A stretch of 36,417 nucleotides of DNA from positions 1-36,417 of the forward strand of contig JAKBZR010000028.1 in assembly GCA_021842405.1 (NCBI GenBank), in the 5' to 3' direction. A program made the position numbers and the translations under genes. The notes below the pieces were generated by a model. The model was not told the DNA's origin. It did not search any database and worked only from the letters and a program-made list of their open reading frames with translations. Every line of letters starts with the position of its first letter. Position 1 is the first letter of the stretch. This stretch comes from a bacterium (GTDB lineage Bacteria; Armatimonadota; Chthonomonadetes; Chthonomonadales; JAMCWF01). Of the stretch, positions 1,125 to 13,281 are shown piece after piece.

Positions 1125-1433
1125 ATGCTTGCCGTACCTACTGAATACTACCTGGCCCTTTCGGCCATTCTGTTTACCATCGGCGTCATCGGCGTACTGA
1201 TCAAAAGGAACCCTATCGTTATCTTTATGTGCATCGAGCTGATGCTCAACGCGGTAAATTTAACCTTCATTGCGTTTGGACGGCATTTTGCGCAGATCAA
1301 CGGCCAGATGTACGTGATCTTCGTGATGGCGGTGGCGGCGGCCGAGGTGACGGTTGGGCTGGGGATCATCGTGGCCGTCTTTCGCACCAAGGATACGATT
1401 GACGTGGATGAGGTGAACCTGCTGAAGTTTTAG
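1125..1433 (+). CDS. nuoK: NADH-quinone oxidoreductase subunit K
   Basis: NuoK is the smallest antiporter-like (MrpC-like) subunit of complex I and links the quinone end to the proton-pumping subunits. The 102-residue, three-helix protein has the family core [19 protein letters not shown] and the segment [11 protein letters not shown]. The two membrane glutamates essential in the family are present as E38 and E74, matching E. coli Glu36 and Glu72. The ATG is served by GGAGGG at 1111-1116. The gene sits 3 bases after nuoJ, so the two are certainly co-transcribed. After nuoK the usual direct junction to nuoL is broken by about 700 bases carrying a hicBA pair. Confidence 0.98.
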
Positions 1434-1626
1434 ACTAACATAAACAATGAAAGAATCAGGCAAAGAAAAAGAGATATTCCGACGCTAGATTCGGTGGCAG
1501 ACGTGCAGGTGCTCGTTCGCTTTATGCTCTTAACCAGCTCCCGCGCCAAGTCAACGCGGCGATCGAACAAAACGGTGGCAGGGTATGACATCGGGTCTCA
1601 TATCCATCAAAGAGGTGACAGCCAAT
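1434..1626. other. Junction between nuoK and the hicBA insertion
   Basis: This 193-base stretch has no gene I can support. It is where the complex I operon is first interrupted. The - strand has an open stretch without a credible start or domain, which could be a gene remnant or chance. A likely ribosome binding site for the downstream hicB, AGAGGTGA at 1611-1618, lies at its right end. I see no target duplication or inverted repeat at either edge that would define an insertion event. Confidence 0.4.
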
Positions 1627-1836
1627 ATGAGAAACTATATCGCTGTTGTTGAACAATGTCCCGAAACGGGCTTATATGTAGGCTATGTGCCGGGCTTCGC
1701 TGGCGCTCATACGCAAGCAGAGACATTAGATGAGTTGCCGCACAATCTACGCGAAGTGATTGAAATGTTGTTAGAAGACGGTGAGCCATCTCTGGAAGCT
1801 CAGTTTATCGGTACTCAGATGGTAACTGTGGAATAG
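1627..1836 (+). CDS. hicB: HicB-family antitoxin
   Basis: HicB proteins neutralise the HicA mRNA interferase by direct binding. The 69-residue product has the classic HicB core: NYIAVVEQCPETGLYVGYVP, then GFAGAHTQAETLDELPHNLR and EVIEMLLEDGEP. It ends soon afterwards. There is therefore no room for the ribbon-helix-helix or helix-turn-helix DNA-binding tail of longer HicB proteins. I start it at the ATG at 1627 rather than at an in-frame upstream ATG. The reasons are that AGAGGTGA lies 8 bases upstream and HicB homologues begin M-x-N-Y. The hicA gene begins 1 base after the stop, which implies translational coupling. The order is antitoxin first. The family call is secure; activity is not shown by sequence. 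Confidence 0.92.
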   Translation: MRNYIAVVEQCPETGLYVGYVPGFAGAHTQAETLDELPHNLREVIEMLLEDGEPSLEAQFIGTQMVTVE

Positions 1837-1837
1837 T

Positions 1838-2065
1838 GTGAAATTGCCTCCAGTACTGAAATCACGAGAAGTGGAGACAATGTTGGAACGTCTCGGGTTT
1901 ATTGTGGTACGGCAAAGAAGCTCACACAAGCAATTTCGCCATCCAGACGGACGTTGTACCACCGTGCCATTTCATTCGGGGAGAGACAGTTCACCCATAT
2001 TGTTGAGGCAGATAGCCAAATACATTGGCTTGACAGTTAATGATTTGCTCTCGGAGGGTAGGTGA
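1838..2065 (+). CDS. hicA: HicA-family mRNA interferase toxin
   Basis: HicA toxins are double-stranded-RNA-binding-fold ribonucleases that cleave mRNA independently of ribosomes and need a conserved histidine. The 75-residue product has the family pattern LKSREVETMLERLGF followed by VVRQRSSHKQFRHPDGR, then TTVPFH and LLRQIAKYIGL. The active-site histidine is present in the SSH triplet. The usual Gly of the G-S-H motif is Ser here, a small departure that could reduce activity. The start is a GTG 1 base after hicB and has no strong ribosome binding site of its own, as expected for coupling. The pair sits between nuoK and nuoL in the operon direction, so it is probably co-transcribed with respiratory genes. 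Confidence 0.92.
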   Translation: MKLPPVLKSREVETMLERLGFIVVRQRSSHKQFRHPDGRCTTVPFHSGRDSSPILLRQIAKYIGLTVNDLLSEGR

Positions 2066-2134
2066 GATCATTGATTAATTCGCTGCGTCCCAATACTTTT
2101 TGCTTCCGGCTATGCCGGGTTATGGTGATTGTGC

Positions 2135-4159
<2,025 letters not shown>

Positions 4160-4185
4160 ACAGGCTCTCAAGAAACGAAGCTAAA

Positions 4186-4935
4186 ATGAAAAAACAGTAT
4201 AAAAACCCTCCAATTGAAGAGGCAATCGTCGAGTTTCATTTTGTTCCAGGACATGGTTCAGAATGGGATTTGATTATTCCGGGGAAACTCCATGAACACC
4301 CTGATATCAAGACCCAGTATCCAAGCGAGCCCCGTGTCCAGAAACTTTTTATACCGACGATTCAATCGATGCCAGGTCAGCCATCATCTCCGACAGTGCA
4401 AATTGCGCAAAGAGTCCAATTTCTTAATGATGACGGAAGCCGCCTGGTCTCAGTTGGTCCTAATGTACTCAGCGTTAATGTTCTCCGACCCTATGATGGT
4501 TGGGAGCAGTTTCGCTCACGAATCGAGAAGGCGCTGCATGCCTATACCGAGGTCGCTCAACCAATCGGCGTGAAGCGTGTTGGTGTGCGATATCTAAATA
4601 AGATCGTGGTCCCGGAAAGAGATATCACAATTAAGAAATACACACAATATATTCTAGCTGCCGGCAACGGGCTGCCCGTACAGGTGGAAGGCTTCTGGAA
4701 TCGTGTGATATACAAATATAACCCATTTCTAACGCTCGTCCTAAATCAGTTAAAAATCGAAGCACCCGAAGGGCAATCGGCCTTCGGGTTAGACTTAGAC
4801 GTTAGCTGGGAAGGGGCTGAAGCGAAAAGCTTAGATGAAATCATAGAAGTCGTTAATGATCTGCATGAGCGCGAAGGTGCGGCTTTTGAAGCGATCATAA
4901 CCGATGCTACTCGGGAGCTATTTGATGGAGAATAG
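4186..4935 (+). CDS. TIGR04255 family protein, copy 1
   Basis: The product belongs to TIGR04255, a sporadically distributed bacterial family without established function. The 249 residues show the family signature: KNPPIEEAIVEFHF at the N-terminus, a central LSVNVLRPYDGWEQF, then GVKRVGVRYLNKI, and an acidic helical C-terminus. No catalytic motif, membrane segment or signal peptide is visible. The next gene overlaps its end by 11 bases and a PIN-domain gene overlaps that one by 4 bases, so the three form one translationally coupled cassette. The base composition is lower in G+C than the neighbours: the 60 bases from 4201 are 42% G+C, against 57% for the 60 bases from 2401 in nuoL. This supports acquisition by transfer. 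A second copy lies at 11592. Confidence 0.85.
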   Translation: MKKQYKNPPIEEAIVEFHFVPGHGSEWDLIIPGKLHEHPDIKTQYPSEPRVQKLFIPTIQSMPGQPSSPTVQIAQRVQFLNDDGSRLVSVGPNVLSVNVLRPYDGWEQFRSRIEKALHAYTEVAQPIGVKRVGVRYLNKIVVPERDITIKKYTQYILAAGNGLPVQVEGFWNRVIYKYNPFLTLVLNQLKIEAPEGQSAFGLDLDVSWEGAEAKSLDEIIEVVNDLHEREGAAFEAIITDATRELFDGE

Positions 4936-5350
4936 AACCAGCGGTATACAATTCGAACAGAATAGTTATATGGCCTATCCGGAGACCAGTATATCTGGTT
5001 TAACGCAATGGTACGGCATCAGTAATTCGGAAACTGCTGAATCTGAGGGCACACAGGAGATTTATAGAGATTGGATTCCTGCTCAACCTCCATTCTTGGA
5101 GAGAGATGTTGCGCTTTGGATGCATGGAACTTCTGAGCCGGCAAGTATAGAACAGGAAAAAATGGTAAAACTTTTCCCATATCAGGCGATAGAAGGGCCG
5201 TCTGCCTATTTCGCAGAATCGTTTGTGAAGGTATACGGGGAGCCTGTATTTCCCTCCAAGCGTCGCCAGTTTGGGAGTGCGAAAGGGTTGATAGTGATGT
5301 CTGATGATTTCGATGAGCCACTAACAGACTTTAATGACTATATGCTATGA
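4925..5350 (+). CDS. Chimeric antitoxin: unknown N-terminus plus VapB-type (DUF2281-like) tail
   Basis: The 141-residue protein has two parts. Residues 1 to about 110 are unlike any family I recognise. They are rich in aromatic and acidic residues, with no membrane segment. Residues 111-141, from SKRRQFGSAKGLIVMSDDFD to the end (EPLTDFNDYML), match by eye the toxin-binding tail of DUF2281/Phd-type VapB antitoxins that precede PIN toxins. It overlaps the TIGR04255 gene by 11 bases. Its TGA overlaps the ATG of the PIN gene (ATGA at 5347-5350), the spacing expected of an antitoxin-toxin pair. I infer that it neutralises the PIN protein while its N-terminus connects to TIGR04255. Alternatively the N-terminus is debris left by a recombination. 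I chose the ATG at 4925; an in-frame ATG at 4904 is possible. Confidence 0.7.
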   Translation: MENRTSGIQFEQNSYMAYPETSISGLTQWYGISNSETAESEGTQEIYRDWIPAQPPFLERDVALWMHGTSEPASIEQEKMVKLFPYQAIEGPSAYFAESFVKVYGEPVFPSKRRQFGSAKGLIVMSDDFDEPLTDFNDYML

Positions 5351-5733
5351 AACTGTTGCTCGACACGCATAGTTTCCTGTGGTTTATCGGTGGGGATGCG
5401 AAACTCAGTCACAAGGCGCAGACGCTGATTGAAGATCAAACGAACGATGTCTTTCTCAGTATTGCCAGCCTATGGGAAATGGCAATAAAATTCAGTCAAG
5501 GTAAATTACAACTAGTGCAACCTTTCGAAACGTTTATGTCAGAACAACTAAGCCTGAATCACATTCGTACTCTCGATATCACGTTCAGCCACACGGCGAG
5601 CGTGGCAACTTTACCTTTTCATCACAGAGATCCTTTCGACCGTCTACTGGTTGCCCAGACTCGGATTGAACAGATGCCGATTGTGAGCTGCGATCAGGCG
5701 CTTGATACCTATGGAATCACGAGATTATGGTGA
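5347..5733 (+). CDS. PIN-domain ribonuclease toxin, VapC-like
   Basis: PIN-domain toxins are Mg2+-dependent ribonucleases that usually cut tRNA or rRNA. The 128 residues carry the acidic active-site set: D6 in MKLLLDTHSFLW, E44 in SLWEMAIK, D98 in RDPFDRLLVAQ and D116 in VSCDQALDTYG. The length is typical and no active-site residue is missing, so the enzyme looks intact. The start codon overlaps the stop of the upstream chimeric antitoxin by 4 bases. It belongs to the PIN subfamily usually partnered by antitoxins ending in an FGSAKG-x-DDFDEPL tail, which is exactly what precedes it. nuoM begins 37 bases downstream, so the toxin gene lies inside the respiratory operon. Confidence 0.93.
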   Translation: MKLLLDTHSFLWFIGGDAKLSHKAQTLIEDQTNDVFLSIASLWEMAIKFSQGKLQLVQPFETFMSEQLSLNHIRTLDITFSHTASVATLPFHHRDPFDRLLVAQTRIEQMPIVSCDQALDTYGITRLW

Positions 5734-5770
5734 TGAAAATGTTTACAGATAACCGGAGTGAAAAGCAAAT

Positions 5771-7444
5771 ATGCCTGAAATCATAAGAGATCATCTGCTT
5801 ACCTGCTTGGTTTTCCTGCCGCTCATCGGCGCGGTGGTGCTGATGTTCATGCCGAAGCCGGCCGAATCGCCGGCCGACGGCCACGGCACCCACCAAGACT
5901 CTTCATCCCCGGCCGACCCCCGCGCGCAGGCAATCCGATGGATGGCGCTGCTCTTTTCGCTCCTCACATTTGCCCTCTCGTTGATATTGCTGTTCCGCTT
6001 TCACTCGGCGAAGTCGAGTTACCAGTTCGTGGATGGCCCTTACAACTGGATTAAGCAGTTCCACGTCCACTACTACCTGGGTATTGACGGCATCAGCCTG
6101 CTGCTCATCCTGCTGACCACCTTTCTGTCCGTGCTCTGCATCGGTTACTCCTTCTCGGTAAAGCAGCGGGTGAAGGAGTTTATGATCTTTATGCTGGTGC
6201 TGGAGACCGGCATGCTGGGCGTTTTTTGCGCATTGGATCTGGTGCTGTTTTATGTCTTTTGGGAGTCGATGCTCATCCCGATGTACTTTTTGATCGGAAT
6301 TTGGGGGCATGAGCGCCGCATCTACGCCGCGATCAAGTTTTTCATCTTTACCTTTATCGGCAGCGTTCTGATGCTGGTGGCGATCGTGGCCCTGTATGTA
6401 AAAACCGGCAGCTTCAATCTGGTTACGCTCTTGACACCCGGCACCCAGCCCCATCATCTGCTCTCGCTGATCAGCCCCCACGTGCTCATGTGGATGTTTG
6501 CCGCCTTTGCGCTGGCCTTTATGATCAAGGTGCCGATGTTTCCGTTTCATACGTGGCTGCCGGATGCCCACGTCGAAGCGCCGACCGCCGGTTCGGTGAT
6601 TCTGGCCGGCGTGCTGCTGAAGATGGGCATTTACGGTTTTCTGCGTTTCTGCCTGCCGCTGTTCCCGGCGCAGGCCCACCAGGCGGCCCCGCTCTTCTTG
6701 ACACTGGCGGTGATCGGCATCGTCTACGGCGCGATTGTGGCCGCCATGCAGCCCGATATGAAAAAGGTGGTGGCCTACTCCAGCGTGAGCCACCTGGGGT
6801 TTGTGATGCTGGGTATCTTTTCGTTAAATCCACTCGGCATCACCGGCGCGGTGCTCCAGAGCATCAATCACGGCGTCTCGACCGGCGCCCTCTTCTTTAT
6901 CGTCGGCATGTTTTACGACCGGAAGCACACCCGCCTCATCTCGGCATACGGCGGTGTGAAGCGGGCGGTCCCCATTCTGGCCGCCTTCTTTTTGATCGCA
7001 ATGCTCTCCTCCATTGCGCTGCCGCTGACGAACGGCTTCGTGGGCGAATTCACCATCTTGCAGGGGAGCTTCATTTCGCATACCGCCGGTTGGAAATATA
7101 CGGCGGTTGCCACCACCGGCATGATCCTGTCGGCTGTCTATATGCTCTGGATGTTCCAGCGTGTGATGTACGGGCCGCTGGACAAAGAGGATAATCGTAG
7201 CCTGCCCGACCTGGTATGGCGCGAAAAACTGGTGCTTGCACCGCTGGTCGTGCTGATTTTCTGGTTCGGATGTTATGTGACGACTTGGACAAAGCCGCTC
7301 ATTCCGACCGTTGATTCGCTGGTTTCAAACGTGGGACCGGCTTCAATTGCGGAGCGGCGGGCGTCGGCGGCTTCCATTTTAGAAGGTACGGCCGGCAAAT
7401 TCGCTATCATTCCGCTGACGCGCGGCAAACTGGGAGGTAAGTAA
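5771..7444 (+). CDS. nuoM: NADH-quinone oxidoreductase subunit M
   Basis: NuoM is the middle antiporter-like proton channel of complex I. The 557-residue protein has the essential glutamate E165 in LVLFYVFWESMLIPMYFLIG and K253 in FMIKVPMFPFHTWLPDAHVE. K284 lies in GVLLKMGIYGFLRF, and QPDMKKVVAYSSVSHLGF follows. An insert of about 20 polar residues (PAESPADGHGTHQ and on, residues 31-50) after the first helix is longer than in E. coli NuoM. The ATG is preceded by GGAGTG at 5755-5760. The C-terminal tail after the last helix is extended by some 40 residues. A URO-D-like gene starts 2 bases after the stop. Confidence 0.98.
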   Translation: MPEIIRDHLLTCLVFLPLIGAVVLMFMPKPAESPADGHGTHQDSSSPADPRAQAIRWMALLFSLLTFALSLILLFRFHSAKSSYQFVDGPYNWIKQFHVHYYLGIDGISLLLILLTTFLSVLCIGYSFSVKQRVKEFMIFMLVLETGMLGVFCALDLVLFYVFWESMLIPMYFLIGIWGHERRIYAAIKFFIFTFIGSVLMLVAIVALYVKTGSFNLVTLLTPGTQPHHLLSLISPHVLMWMFAAFALAFMIKVPMFPFHTWLPDAHVEAPTAGSVILAGVLLKMGIYGFLRFCLPLFPAQAHQAAPLFLTLAVIGIVYGAIVAAMQPDMKKVVAYSSVSHLGFVMLGIFSLNPLGITGAVLQSINHGVSTGALFFIVGMFYDRKHTRLISAYGGVKRAVPILAAFFLIAMLSSIALPLTNGFVGEFTILQGSFISHTAGWKYTAVATTGMILSAVYMLWMFQRVMYGPLDKEDNRSLPDLVWREKLVLAPLVVLIFWFGCYVTTWTKPLIPTVDSLVSNVGPASIAERRASAASILEGTAGKFAIIPLTRGKLGGK

Positions 7445-7446
7445 AA

Positions 7447-8382
7447 TTGACAAAACGAGAGAGATTAATGGCGACGCTGGCCGGTGCAGCGACCGATCGC
7501 ATACCTTATGGGCTTTGGTACCATTTTCGGCTTGACCCGCCCGCCGGCGATGAATTTGTTGAGTCGGAGTTGGCGTTTTATCGAAAATTCGAGCCCGATT
7601 TTCTCAAGGTGATGCATGACATCCCTTACGAGATGCCCGCCGGCCTGCCTAAGATCGAGTCACCGGAAGATTGGACGAAGCTGACCGTCTTGGATGGGGT
7701 GAACGGCAACTTCGGCCAGCAGCTTGCCGCGATCCGGCGCATATTGGCCGGCATGGGTAATGACGCTCCATTGGTGGACACGGTATTCAGCATATTCTCG
7801 ACCGCGCAAAAACTGTGCGGCAACAAAACGTTGGAGCATCTGCGCGCCGATCCGGATGCCACACATGCCGGCTTGAAAAAGATTGCCCAATCGCTGGCGA
7901 ACTGGTCGGAGGCGCTGGTGCGCAATGGGGCGGCCGGTATCTATTTGGCCGTATCGGGCGCGGCCGGCGACACCATGCCGGCCGAGGAGTATCGTGCGAA
8001 TTTTCTCCAATACGATCAGCAGATTTTACATGCCGCGCGCGGCGGCTGGCTTAATGTGCTGCACCATCACGGGGTAGGCATCTATCCCGATCTGACGCTG
8101 CCGCTGGAGGGCTATCACGTCTATAGCTGGAGCAATCGGCTGGCCGGTAATCCCAGTGTCCGCGAGCTGCGGTTGAAGCGCACCGGCTGCCTGATGGCGG
8201 GCGTCAACGAGCTGGAATTCGGCAAAATGACGCCGGAAGCGCTGATCGAGGAGGCGAAGGGTGCCATTGCGGAGAGCGGCGGACGCGCCTTCATCCTGGG
8301 GCCGGGCTGCGCCGTTCCGACTCCGCCCGATTCGCCGGAGGCTAACTTGCATATCTTCCGGCAGGTAGTGACAGAGGTGTAA
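7447..8382 (+). CDS. URO-D-fold protein, methyltransferase-type relative
   Basis: The 311 residues fit the uroporphyrinogen decarboxylase superfamily (TIM barrel), which includes HemE and the corrinoid methyltransferases MtaA/MtbA. The N-terminus MTKRERLMATLAGAATDRIP and the C-terminal GPGCAVPTPPDSPEANL are typical of the wider family. In MtaA/MtbA relatives an H-x-C motif and a distal Cys bind zinc. Here the distal Cys (in GPGC) is present, but the H-x-C site reads VLHHHGVG without Cys, so zinc binding is uncertain. It lacks the arginine-rich N-terminal HemE motif and is unlikely to be HemE itself. The TTG start is favoured by GGGAGG at 7432-7437, nine bases upstream. Its composition matches the host genes. 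The substrate is unknown. Confidence 0.75.
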   Translation: MTKRERLMATLAGAATDRIPYGLWYHFRLDPPAGDEFVESELAFYRKFEPDFLKVMHDIPYEMPAGLPKIESPEDWTKLTVLDGVNGNFGQQLAAIRRILAGMGNDAPLVDTVFSIFSTAQKLCGNKTLEHLRADPDATHAGLKKIAQSLANWSEALVRNGAAGIYLAVSGAAGDTMPAEEYRANFLQYDQQILHAARGGWLNVLHHHGVGIYPDLTLPLEGYHVYSWSNRLAGNPSVRELRLKRTGCLMAGVNELEFGKMTPEALIEEAKGAIAESGGRAFILGPGCAVPTPPDSPEANLHIFRQVVTEV

Positions 8383-8415
8383 GCGGGATCGGTTGAGATA
8401 TCTCGGAGCTTGAAG

Positions 8416-8751
8416 ATGAGATCAGTAGAGAATCTAGAAAAAGATACCACTTTGGCTGAGGTTATTCGGCGATTGGTAGAGGCATACCGGCCGGAGCGAA
8501 TTTATCTATTTGGCTCAAAGGCCCGTGGTGATGCTGGAACGGATAGCGATTACGATTTGTTGGTGATTGTGCCGGACGATGCGCCTCCGGAGCAGCATAA
8601 AAGCCGTTTAGCTTACAAAGCTCTACGCGGAACAGGTACGGCAGCCGACATTATTGTATGGTCACGTTCAAAATTTGAAAAACGTTCACATGTGGTGACA
8701 TCGCTTCCCGCCACCGTGATTCGCGAGGGGAAGATACTCTATGTCGCTTGA
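8416..8751 (+). CDS. MNT-type minimal nucleotidyltransferase, antitoxin of a HEPN pair
   Basis: The protein is a 111-residue DNA-polymerase-beta-fold minimal nucleotidyltransferase. The core motif is intact: G33-S34 in YLFGSKARGDAGTDSDYDLL, with D45 and D47 as metal ligands and D78 (in AADIIVW) as the likely third carboxylate. In characterised MNT/HEPN modules the nucleotidyltransferase neutralises the HEPN ribonuclease, in some cases by AMPylating it. A HEPN gene overlaps its 3' end by 11 bases, confirming the pairing. I chose the ATG at 8416 because GGAG at 8405-8408 is well spaced; a TTG at 8410 is the alternative. The HEPN partner is truncated, so this antitoxin may be a survivor of a decayed module. 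Confidence 0.9.
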   Translation: MRSVENLEKDTTLAEVIRRLVEAYRPERIYLFGSKARGDAGTDSDYDLLVIVPDDAPPEQHKSRLAYKALRGTGTAADIIVWSRSKFEKRSHVVTSLPATVIREGKILYVA

Positions 8752-8947
8752 CCCGGAATTGGTGGCGGAGACACGAGCATGGCTGATTAAGGCAAGCCGC
8801 GATTGTACGGCTGGAGAGGTTGATCTTGCCGCTCGGCCGCCATTGGCGGAGGATGCCGCATTTCATGCTCAGCAGGCTGTAGAGAAAGCACTAAAAGCTT
8901 ATCTTACGTGGAACGGTCGTACATTCCGCAAAACACACAATATTTAA
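8741..8947 (+). pseudogene. HEPN-domain toxin, C-terminally truncated
   Basis: The 68-residue product aligns by eye with the N-terminal half of HEPN proteins that partner MNT nucleotidyltransferases: MSLDPELVAETRAWLIKAS, DAAFHAQQAVEKALKAYLTW and FRKTHNI. Full-length relatives are about 120-140 residues and continue for several helices after the T-H-N motif. Here the frame stops directly after it, at the TAA at 8945-8947. The bases of that stop run into the Shine-Dalgarno of nuoN (AAAGGAG at 8946-8952). The missing part includes the last helices of the four-helix fold, so the protein is probably inactive. A deletion joining HEPN to the nuoN leader is the simplest explanation. Confidence 0.8.
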
Positions 8948-8958
8948 AGGAGAAACGC

Positions 8959-10443
8959 TTGAACGGAGCATCACATATCGCGTCCAGTTTGAGTGCAATA
9001 CTGCCCATATTGATCCTGATGGGTACCGCTTGCGTTGCGCTGATGGGCGATGTATTCATCTGGAAGCGGCAGCGAGCATTGACCGGAATTGTGGCGCTGA
9101 TCGGCTCGGTCTGGGCGCTGGTGGTTAATCTTCAGCAGATTTTGGGCTATGGCAGTTCGGAACCATTCAGCGGGTCTCTGGTCTATGACTCGCTCAGCCA
9201 AACAACCAGCCTGGTGCTCCTGATCGCAACCGTGCTTTCGGTATTGCTGGCGATTACCTATCTGCGCAACCGCGGGCTTGAGTTGGGCGAGTACCACGTG
9301 CTACTGCTTTTTTCGGCATCCGGTGCCATGCTGATGGGCGCTGCCAACGATTTGATTATGCTCTTCATTGGGATTGAGGTGCTTTCGGTGGCGCTCTACG
9401 TGCTGGCCGGCATTGCGCGAACCGAAGAGCGCAGCGAGGAGGCGGCCATCAAGTACTTCCTGCTGGGTGCTTTCGCCTCCGGATTTCTACTTTACGGGAT
9501 CGCGCTCGTCTACGGTGCGACCGGCACCACCAACCTCCAACAAATCAATCACCTGTTCAGCGCTAAGGCATCCATCACCCCAATCTTGGTAGCCGGCATC
9601 GGGCTGTTAATCGTAGGGCTTGGCTTCAAGGCGGCGCTGGTTCCATTTCATCAGTGGACGCCCGACGTTTACGAAGGTGCGCCGACCTCGGTCACCGCAT
9701 TTATGGCGGCCGCCGCAAAAGTGGGCGCCTTCGCCGCCTTTTTGCGAATCATGAACGCCTTCATGCCGGTACAACCGGCCTGGATCACCGCGATTCAGGT
9801 GCTGGCGATTTTAACCATGGTCTTTGGCAATTTGCTGGCGGTGGTTCAAGATAACGTGAAGAGGATGCTGGCCTACTCCAGCATCGCACACGCCGGTTAC
9901 GTGCTGGTGGCGGTCGCCTCCACTGGGATGATCTACCGGCACGCGGTGCTCTACCTTTCTCAGGGCGATCGCGCCGCCATGTTTTACCTGCTCGCCTACG
10001 TCTTTATGACGGTCGGCGCGTTCGGCGTGCTGGTGCTGTTATCGCGGAGCGGCAAAGATTACCAAACGATGAACGATCTGAAGGGCTTGGCCCGCACACA
10101 TCCGTTCGCCGCCTACACGATGATGTTCTTCATGCTTTCTCTGGGCGGAATCCCGCCCACGATGGGCTTTCTGGGCAAATGGTTGATCTTTAACGCCGCC
10201 ATTTCCGCCCACCAGGTCACGCTGGCCATCGTGATGGCACTGGCAAGCGTGGTGGGCATCTATTACTACCTGCGGGTGGTCTGGATGATGTGCTTCCAGG
10301 AGCCGGAGGGTGCACCGGCTACCGAGCATCCAGTTAACGATTGGGCAGCGCGATGGTCGGTGATCGTGTCACTGGCCGGAACGCTGATGTTTGGGGTGCT
10401 GCCGGCGCTGTTAAGCCCGATCATGACGGGGCTTTACCATTGA
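8959..10443 (+). CDS. nuoN: NADH-quinone oxidoreductase subunit N
   Basis: NuoN is the antiporter-like proton channel of complex I nearest the quinone end. The 494-residue protein has E140 in LFIGIEVLSVALYVLAG and K224 in GLGFKAALVPFHQWTPDVYE. The pattern GAPTSVTAFMAAAAKVGAFA and QDNVKRMLAYSSIAHAGYVL follow. About fourteen membrane helices are visible and the length is normal. I place the start at the TTG at 8959 because AAAGGAG (8946-8952) sits 6 bases upstream and the residues before it belong to the overlapping HEPN gene. Larger in-frame extensions from 8908 have no ribosome binding site. It is the last nuo gene here. Confidence 0.97.
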   Translation: MNGASHIASSLSAILPILILMGTACVALMGDVFIWKRQRALTGIVALIGSVWALVVNLQQILGYGSSEPFSGSLVYDSLSQTTSLVLLIATVLSVLLAITYLRNRGLELGEYHVLLLFSASGAMLMGAANDLIMLFIGIEVLSVALYVLAGIARTEERSEEAAIKYFLLGAFASGFLLYGIALVYGATGTTNLQQINHLFSAKASITPILVAGIGLLIVGLGFKAALVPFHQWTPDVYEGAPTSVTAFMAAAAKVGAFAAFLRIMNAFMPVQPAWITAIQVLAILTMVFGNLLAVVQDNVKRMLAYSSIAHAGYVLVAVASTGMIYRHAVLYLSQGDRAAMFYLLAYVFMTVGAFGVLVLLSRSGKDYQTMNDLKGLARTHPFAAYTMMFFMLSLGGIPPTMGFLGKWLIFNAAISAHQVTLAIVMALASVVGIYYYLRVVWMMCFQEPEGAPATEHPVNDWAARWSVIVSLAGTLMFGVLPALLSPIMTGLYH

Positions 10444-11591: not shown

Positions 11592-12341
11592 ATGAGCAAA
11601 AAATACAGAAATCCACCGATTGTTGAGGCTCTGTGTGAGTTTCGCTTTAATCCAAGCGATGAATGGGATCTCACTGTCCCTGGTTTGGTATATGAAAAGA
11701 TTCGAGATAATTTTCCTAAAAGGCGCCAAGCTAAGGCATATGAACTCAATACTGTGATTGGCCCAGAGGGTGTCGAGCAAAGAACTGTAACCACTGATCG
11801 AATGCAATTTTTACATGAGGATGAAAAAGCTCTCATTCAGGTAGATCGGCATTTGCTGGCTGTCAACCGCTTGAAACCATATTCTGGATGGGATGAATTT
11901 TTACCTCTAATTCGACAGGGTTCCAGTGCATACATTGAGGAAGCGAAACCAAAGGGTATTCAGCGCATAGGTTTACGATACATCAATCGCATTGAGATTC
12001 CAGGCCAAGACGTAAGACTAGAAGATTATTTAGAGTTTCGTCCTTTTGTAGGATCAGGATTATCCCAAGGGCATAAATCATTTATAGTCGGTATTCAAAT
12101 CCCTTATGAGAGTTCGAAGGATACCCTTCGTCTTCAGCTTGCTAACGTTGCAACTGGTACTCATGCTGCGAGTATAGCGATGATACTTGATCTGGATTAC
12201 TCTCTTGCTCAACCCGACAGCGTGTCGTTGGACAACGTTTTTGAATGGATGGAGGTTGCGCATAATCATGTTGAAGAAGCATTCGAAGCATGTATTTCAG
12301 AACGACTTCGGCAACTGTTTGAAGAGGCGGTGGAAGAATGA
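11592..12341 (+). CDS. TIGR04255 family protein, copy 2
   Basis: The second member of TIGR04255 in the window has 249 residues, the same length as copy 1. Shared landmarks are the N-terminal KYRNPPIVEALCEFRFNPSD (copy 1 KNPPIEEAIVEFHF), VNRLKPYSGWDEFLPLI (copy 1 VNVLRPYDGWEQF) and GIQRIGLRYINRIEIPGQD (copy 1 GVKRVGVRYLNKI). An acidic amphipathic C-terminus is also shared. Overall identity looks low, so this is not a recent tandem duplication. No catalytic motif is recognisable. The stop overlaps the next gene's start (ATGA at 12338-12341). Together with the third gene this makes a tight tricistron of the same layout as the cassette at 4186-5733. Function is unknown. Confidence 0.85.
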   Translation: MSKKYRNPPIVEALCEFRFNPSDEWDLTVPGLVYEKIRDNFPKRRQAKAYELNTVIGPEGVEQRTVTTDRMQFLHEDEKALIQVDRHLLAVNRLKPYSGWDEFLPLIRQGSSAYIEEAKPKGIQRIGLRYINRIEIPGQDVRLEDYLEFRPFVGSGLSQGHKSFIVGIQIPYESSKDTLRLQLANVATGTHAASIAMILDLDYSLAQPDSVSLDNVFEWMEVAHNHVEEAFEACISERLRQLFEEAVEE

Positions 12342-12904
12342 ATGAAGTAGCAATCTTAGAGTCAAGTATCGGGTCACCTGTCTTCCATCCTACTCCATTT
12401 TCATTTCTTCCTATGAGCGAGTGGCAAGGGGAAATGGGTATAGCCGACGAAAGCCCCAATGCTAGACCAACCTATATGTCAATTATCGATTCACGAACTA
12501 GAACAACCGTTTCCAAACTGCTAGAGGATTTCAATAACCGGCAGGAAACAGGAGCTTCTACAGTCCGTGATTTTGAACATCGGATCTGCTTGGTAGCATC
12601 TCTTTACACGTTCAGGCGTTCGGAAGAGGTCCTCTCTTTTTTGAATGACTGCCCTTTTCTTGTCCAACTGCTGATAGAAGCTCGTAATGCGATTGCGAGA
12701 TGCTTCGGGGAATTTCAAAAAGTGGCACTTGAAGTCGTTACTGATCCTGAAGCAGAAAACGACCGTGAGCTATTTGCCTTTATTCAAACAAATCTTGAAC
12801 CGAATGATGCTTTGGATAAATTGGACCGTCTTGATCAAGAGTGGTGGCTTGCTGAGTCTGATCGAGCTAAAAGTAAGCTCTGTATTCATGTGGAGTTCGA
12901 ATGA
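12338..12904 (+). CDS. Two-part partner protein of the TIGR04255/HEPN cassette
   Basis: The 188-residue protein is soluble, with no signal peptide. Residues 1-95 resemble nothing I know. Residues about 97-188 (FLNDCPFLVQLLIEARNAIA, then VALEVVTDPEAENDRELFAF and DQEWWLAESDRAKSKLCIHV) resemble, from memory, a small protein family often found directly upstream of HEPN genes like the one that follows here. That would make this half the HEPN-specific partner, probably an antitoxin. The start overlaps the TIGR04255 stop, and the stop overlaps the HEPN start (ATGA at 12901-12904). The layout parallels the chimeric protein at 4925. The function is inferred from position only. Confidence 0.65.
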   Translation: MNEVAILESSIGSPVFHPTPFSFLPMSEWQGEMGIADESPNARPTYMSIIDSRTRTTVSKLLEDFNNRQETGASTVRDFEHRICLVASLYTFRRSEEVLSFLNDCPFLVQLLIEARNAIARCFGEFQKVALEVVTDPEAENDRELFAFIQTNLEPNDALDKLDRLDQEWWLAESDRAKSKLCIHVEFE

Positions 12905-13281
12905 GTTTCGATTGGGCAGATTATCTTAGTCTGGCACAAGAGCTGTCAGGGAACATGGTTAGTCAGGCTAGTCAGGAAGCTAAATTACGTTCTGCTATTA
13001 GTCGCGCCTATTATGCTGCTTTCTGTAAAGCTCGAAACCATCTTAGAGATAAAGAAGGGTATCTGGTCACGCAAGAGGTGGAAGTTCATCAGGATATCCG
13101 TAACGAGTTCAAGCGTAGCGATGATAAAGAACACAGACAAATTGGTCAGCATCTTGATCGCTTAAGGAGGGACAGGAATAAAGTTGACTATGATGACAAT
13201 GTTGCGAGTTTAGACAAGATGACTAAACAAGATTTGGGATTAGCCGAAAAGATCTTTATTCTATTGTCACGCATATCTTGA
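12901..13281 (+). CDS. HEPN-domain protein, likely effector of the second cassette
   Basis: The 126-residue all-helical protein is recognisable as HEPN by AISRAYYAAFCKARNHLRDK in the first half and LDRLRRDRNKVDYDD in the second. HEPN RNases use an R-x4-6-H motif, often R-N-x3-H. Here the corresponding stretch is R92-N93-K-V-D-Y97, with Tyr where the catalytic His would be. Nuclease activity is therefore uncertain and another role, such as binding, is possible. This R-N-x-x-D-Y form seems usual in its subfamily. The gene overlaps the upstream partner by 4 bases and ends the cassette. Its composition (45% G+C over 12961-13020) is lower than that of the flagellar and nuo genes. A convergent methyltransferase gene lies 10 bases downstream. 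Confidence 0.82.
   Translation: MSFDWADYLSLAQELSGNMVSQASQEAKLRSAISRAYYAAFCKARNHLRDKEGYLVTQEVEVHQDIRNEFKRSDDKEHRQIGQHLDRLRRDRNKVDYDDNVASLDKMTKQDLGLAEKIFILLSRIS

Follow-up and report, generated by a model that had tools for sequence, protein, structure and literature searches.

A VapB-type toxin-binding tail on an unrelated N-terminal extension suggests a recurrent three-gene architecture built around TIGR04255

Results

A three-gene cassette between nuoL and nuoM

The window, by which we mean the whole stretch of 36,417 nucleotides that was analysed, carries at the nuoL/nuoM junction a cassette of three overlapping genes on the forward (+) strand. The first gene (4186-4935) encodes a 249-aa protein that is a clear member of NCBIfam TIGR04255 (sporadTIGR04255), a family without assigned function, which it matches with 146.5 bits against a cut-off of 30 over positions 1-251 of 252. 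The second, ORF2 (4925-5350), overlaps the TIGR04255 gene by 11 bases and runs through 141 codons with no frameshift and no internal stop. The third (5347-5733) specifies a PIN-domain toxin of the VapC type of 128 aa (Pfam PIN, E 1.5e-11), in which an alignment with three VapC relatives shows the acidic residues D6, E44, D95/D98 and D116 to be kept. ORF2 stop and PIN start share the tetranucleotide ATGA (5347-5350), as in the VapBC pairs to which an earlier sequence-only reading had compared them, and translation of the PIN gene is likely coupled to that of ORF2 through this overlap. The G+C content of the three genes (44-47%) differs from that of the flanking nuoL and nuoM (57-58%), so that the nuo operon seems to have received the cassette by insertion. 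This operon (window 1125-10443) is in fact broken at two further junctions, by a HicB/HicA pair between nuoK and nuoL (1585-2065) and, between nuoM and nuoN, by a gene resembling uroporphyrinogen decarboxylase as judged by eye together with a nucleotidyltransferase/HEPN pair. The HEPN gene of this pair (8741-8947) encodes 68 aa, aligns to Pfam positions 2-56 of 117, reaches into the start of nuoN and is probably truncated.

A toxin-binding tail behind a homologue-free extension

The sequence-only reading had proposed that only the end of ORF2 is a VapB/DUF2281 toxin-binding tail, grafted onto a different protein. Profile searches bear out the first part of this proposal: Pfam DUF2281 aligns residues 106-139 with its positions 31-64 of 64 (E 6e-7), and the NCBIfam VapB model NF050009 covers residues 96-140 (E 3e-14) with 53 bits, short of the cut-off of 60, which is no surprise when the N-terminal half of the profile is absent. 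The last 33 residues scored alone gave an E of 5e-15, and the boundary falls at about residue 109-112. We therefore refer to residues 111-141 plus the stop codon (5255-5350) as the tail and to residues 1-110 (4925-5254) as a variable N-terminal extension. Residues 1-112 searched on their own matched no family in Pfam or NCBIfam, and no N-terminal domain of the VapBC type (Phd, N-terminal half of DUF2281, AbrB or RHH) was found there with either collection; the 141 residues are thus not one ordinary antitoxin family, and the front is as unlike the usual small antitoxin body as had been claimed. Nor did residues 1-110 have homologues among 101 genomes and IMG/VR, plasmid matches to the whole of ORF2 running through the tail only, and the function of the extension is accordingly not readable from conservation. 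The expectation that this front would match other proteins encoded downstream of TIGR04255 failed at the sequence level. Nonetheless, it is real coding sequence: its codon usage matches that of the cassette genes in frame, a score equalled by none of 2000 stop-free random sequences, and an open frame of 110 codons would arise by chance at this composition with P ~0.001. Together with the intact frame, this makes a frameshift in the middle of the gene highly improbable.

The tail itself is portable. In Gloeothece, a Phd-type antitoxin has a tail with 19 of 24 residues identical to the window's, and its adjoining PIN protein is 49% identical to that of the window. We examined 26 loci with a window-type tail from 397 genomes; as named by eye from the translations, their N-termini are mostly of the Phd type and otherwise DUF2281, HTH-like or other modules. 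A DUF2281-type tail on an HTH-like protein (L175; HigA-like by eye) is further evidence of this portability. At the level of sequence, then, the graft is genuine, and it is wider than had been supposed. TIGR04255 stood upstream of the tail in none of these 26 other loci, so the combination present in the window has been seen once.

Predicted fold of the TIGR04255 protein

The confident AlphaFold model of the TIGR04255 protein (pLDDT 94, pTM 0.89) is a duplicated TBP-like fold, in which a beta-alpha-beta4-alpha plan is repeated. The top PDB matches returned by Foldseek are TATA-binding proteins, and these are weak (E 3e-3, TM ~0.3, probability 0.87-0.98). A SecB-like chaperone identity found no support, SecB being absent from the 50 best fold matches in the PDB. 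In 9hnh, the one PDB sequence match (E 0.004), the same short helical stretch is aligned twice, and this match looks spurious. Pfam scans detected no Panacea/DUF4065 domain in either TIGR04255 or ORF2. No paper naming TIGR04255 turned up in the literature collection that was searched. Six copies are present in the source genome; a first scan of genome contigs with a single TIGR04255 protein as query gave no matches. In one locus (L093, 4001-5095) TIGR04255 and ORF2 are naturally fused into one protein of 364 aa, followed by a gene of the TQSCDL family and a large restriction-helicase-like gene; folding of this fusion left the extension at low confidence and was uninformative as to a docking site.

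TIGR04255 cassettes with exchangeable antitoxin and toxin parts

A second TIGR04255 gene (11592-12341, + strand, 150.6 bits) opens a parallel cassette within the window, in which ORF2 (12338-12904, + strand) joins an 80-residue extension to a HEPN-partner domain and the third gene (12901-13281, + strand) encodes a HEPN-type toxin with weak HEPN matches, which falls into one cluster with 32 further third genes of the HEPN kind. Our survey took in 80 TIGR04255 loci from public genomes, with further loci from relatives as well as from plasmids and viral contigs. Across the roughly 80 loci, which are spread over many phyla, the next gene usually combines a variable N-terminal extension with a C-terminal part that tracks the third gene. 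The latter is HEPN in 33 loci, PIN of several kinds in others (8 by Pfam, in at least three lineages), a family starting MFLAR.ITRAKW in about 20, behind HEAT-like ORF2s, a TQSCDL family in 6 and a zeta toxin in one locus on a Vibrio plasmid, the remainder including DUF7689, a Nostoc type and further families without assignment. Two HEPN cassettes (L057 and L105) lie within restriction-modification loci, with the methylase gene on one side and the restriction gene on the other, and a methylase or restriction gene flanks three other cassettes (L071, L093 and L094), which is consistent with a defence setting.

Four types of ORF2 C-terminus have matching stand-alone antitoxins that adjoin the same toxin, namely those of the window, of L098 and of the L066 type, all with PIN, and the HEPN partner with HEPN. 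In the types of the window, of L098 and of HEPN, alignments of these C-termini with stand-alone proteins encoded beside related toxins score far above shuffles; the match of the L053/L066/L087 PIN type, found by genome search, extends at 41% over 41 aa (E 1e-4) to a stand-alone VapBC without TIGR04255 (L150). No stand-alone counterpart was found for the tail of L059. Comparison with two stand-alone relatives (L114 and L119) showed the window extension to be absent from them. To relate extension length to TIGR04255, the HEPN-partner profile was run over the 397 genomes: all nine HEPN loci with TIGR04255 had extensions of 47-80 aa, while those of 13 loci without it, leaving out a macro-domain fusion, were mostly short (median 18), a difference with p=0.001, or 0.004 with the fusion included, these values being only indicative because the loci are related to each other. 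Likewise, the extensions of 32 HEPN-type TIGR04255 cassettes of the first survey had a median of 71 against 11 in a stand-alone locus (L116). Two loci without TIGR04255 are exceptions, one with an extension of 52 aa (L137) and one with possibly 87 aa, its start being uncertain (L128). Profile comparison revealed no motif common to the extensions across toxin types, except between neighbouring HEPN subtypes. In L145 the HEPN-partner domain forms the C-terminus of an apparent macro-domain protein, as judged by eye, with a HEPN gene adjoining, and is another graft of this antitoxin domain. Two orphan antitoxins have the beginning of TIGR04255 fused in frame, 66 residues of it in L123 and 13 in L147, traces of a deletion of the remainder; HEPN is missing there. 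As evidence of addiction these remnants are real but not decisive, because the toxin is gone too.

Origin of the window cassette

In a maximum-likelihood tree the window TIGR04255 falls inside a clade of HEAT-type cassettes (support 100/98), whose ORF2s end in HEAT-like repeats, as sister of L027 (52% identical). Over the whole tree we count 13 changes of toxin type and at least three separate origins of PIN. Being nested among cassettes with another antitoxin and third gene, the window copy likely results from a module swap, and the simplest history is that a VapB tail with its PIN gene replaced the C-terminus of ORF2 together with the third gene. We considered whether residues 75-108 could be what is left of the beginning of the HEAT domain found in the nearest cassettes, but they scored -1.6 bits, below shuffles, and no other frame matched. 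With no trace of a HEAT-type ORF2 in residues 1-110, the N-terminus has either changed so far that its origin is no longer recognisable or been acquired from another source.

Discussion

The comparison of cassettes shows a common architecture in which the antitoxin C-terminus and the toxin are swapped together, and it suggests that the window graft belongs to a recurrent, previously undescribed three-gene arrangement. Precedent for such a layout exists in the TAC systems, in which unrelated antitoxin families bear dissimilar extensions tied to a dedicated third protein and the module moves between toxin types; the ChAD regions of TAC antitoxins share no mutual similarity and still work once transferred to the N-terminal end of model proteins (PMC5105189). 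The cassettes described here resemble TAC (Rv1957/HigBA1, the MqsRA and HicAB types and CmdTAC) in having three genes, dissimilar extensions, diverse toxins and a dedicated third protein and, for the HEPN type, in the link between antitoxin extension and third gene, stand-alone relatives being mostly short. They differ in that the TAC protein is SecB-like and its natural extension C-terminal, whereas TIGR04255 has a TBP-like model and goes with an N-terminal extension; by fold, then, TIGR04255 is not a TAC member although the layout works like TAC. By this analogy, the window cassette is best read as a tripartite toxin-antitoxin system working in the manner of TAC. With VapBC pairs having a DUF2281- or Phd-type antitoxin it shares the PIN toxin, the kind of C-terminal tail and the overlapping genes, but the Phd/DUF2281 N-terminal domain is replaced by an unrelated extension of 110 aa and TIGR04255 lies upstream. 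PanAT, with its Panacea domain and hyperpromiscuous antitoxins, likewise pairs one conserved component with many toxin families; here no match to that domain was detected, and it is the antitoxin portion that varies along with the toxin.

We prefer to explain the cassette by guardian control of an extended antitoxin, an explanation whose chances we regard as evenly balanced. TIGR04255 would be the guardian, ORF2 the antitoxin made of extension and tail, and PIN the toxin RNase, whose active site the tail would fill in the fashion of VapBC. The extension would take the place of the usual antitoxin N-terminal domain and provide a docking site for TIGR04255, whose binding during synthesis would keep the antitoxin folded, soluble and protected from proteolysis; if TIGR04255 were titrated or lost, the antitoxin would fail and the PIN toxin would be released. 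The same logic would have been put to work repeatedly, with third genes of the HEPN, PIN, zeta and other types. Binding of TIGR04255 to the extension, dependence of the antitoxin on it and toxicity are what we infer from these comparisons, and the earlier suggestion that the graft places PIN under TIGR04255-linked control is in the same sense plausible.

A different role for the same parts would be autoregulation, with the usual Phd or other regulatory or dimerisation domain swapped for an extension that brings in TIGR04255; the TBP-like saddle of the latter would sit on the operator so that the toxin-antitoxin complex represses its own transcription. The Foldseek matches to TBP point in this direction, as does the occurrence of the same tail on Phd, DUF2281 and HTH-like modules, which leaves ORF2 without its usual N-terminal domain. 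We nevertheless consider this unlikely given the low significance and TM of those matches, the location of the window cassette inside the nuo operon and of others between restriction-modification genes, and the fact that short stand-alone HEPN partners are likewise devoid of an obvious DNA-binding domain. Still less probable, in our opinion, is an accidental fusion, in which the exchange put an incoming VapB tail behind a pre-existing ORF2 N-terminus and left that N-terminus and TIGR04255 as passengers of a functionally ordinary VapBC, with PIN neutralised by the tail as before. The replacement itself probably happened, as the nesting within the HEAT-type clade indicates, and a combination seen once with a homologue-free front is what such an event could leave behind. 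Yet other TIGR04255 cassettes independently carry an extension with a matched antitoxin C-terminus and toxin, extension length tracks the presence of TIGR04255 in the HEPN type, TIGR04255 and ORF2 remain intact and coding, and the HEAT fragment is absent from the ORF2 N-terminus. That the combination is known in one copy from a draft genome of 174 contigs could also raise the suspicion of a frameshift, an assembly error or a dead remnant. This is highly improbable for three intact frames with overlapping starts and stops, codon usage in frame, no match of related ORF2s in another frame and a PIN protein with its acidic residues kept, at a junction well within a contig of 36 kb.

Guardian control, if extended to all these loci, would make TIGR04255 the hallmark of a new tripartite toxin-antitoxin class, in which a protein of TBP-like fold controls antitoxins through hypervariable N-terminal extensions; chaperone addiction would have been invented independently, and HEPN, several PIN, zeta and unassigned toxins captured, sometimes inside restriction-modification loci. 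We put this wider proposal forward more tentatively. It offers a role that can be tested for a widespread family without assigned function, and for the anonymous genes behind it. If true, the logic of chaperone addiction had more than one evolutionary origin, involving unrelated folds, and the MFLAR.ITRAKW, TQSCDL and DUF7689 third genes are candidate toxins.

The third genes of the HEAT type (L027-L047, L079 and L092 ORF3) and of the Nostoc type (L006, L008 and L036) have by eye a common pattern, R....AF.....LS..R, and may form one toxin superfamily. Finally, the PADLOC candidate defence model PDC-M32A is matched by the ORF2 C-termini of L012 (2220-2762, E 5e-6) and L008 (2242-2727, E 2e-4).
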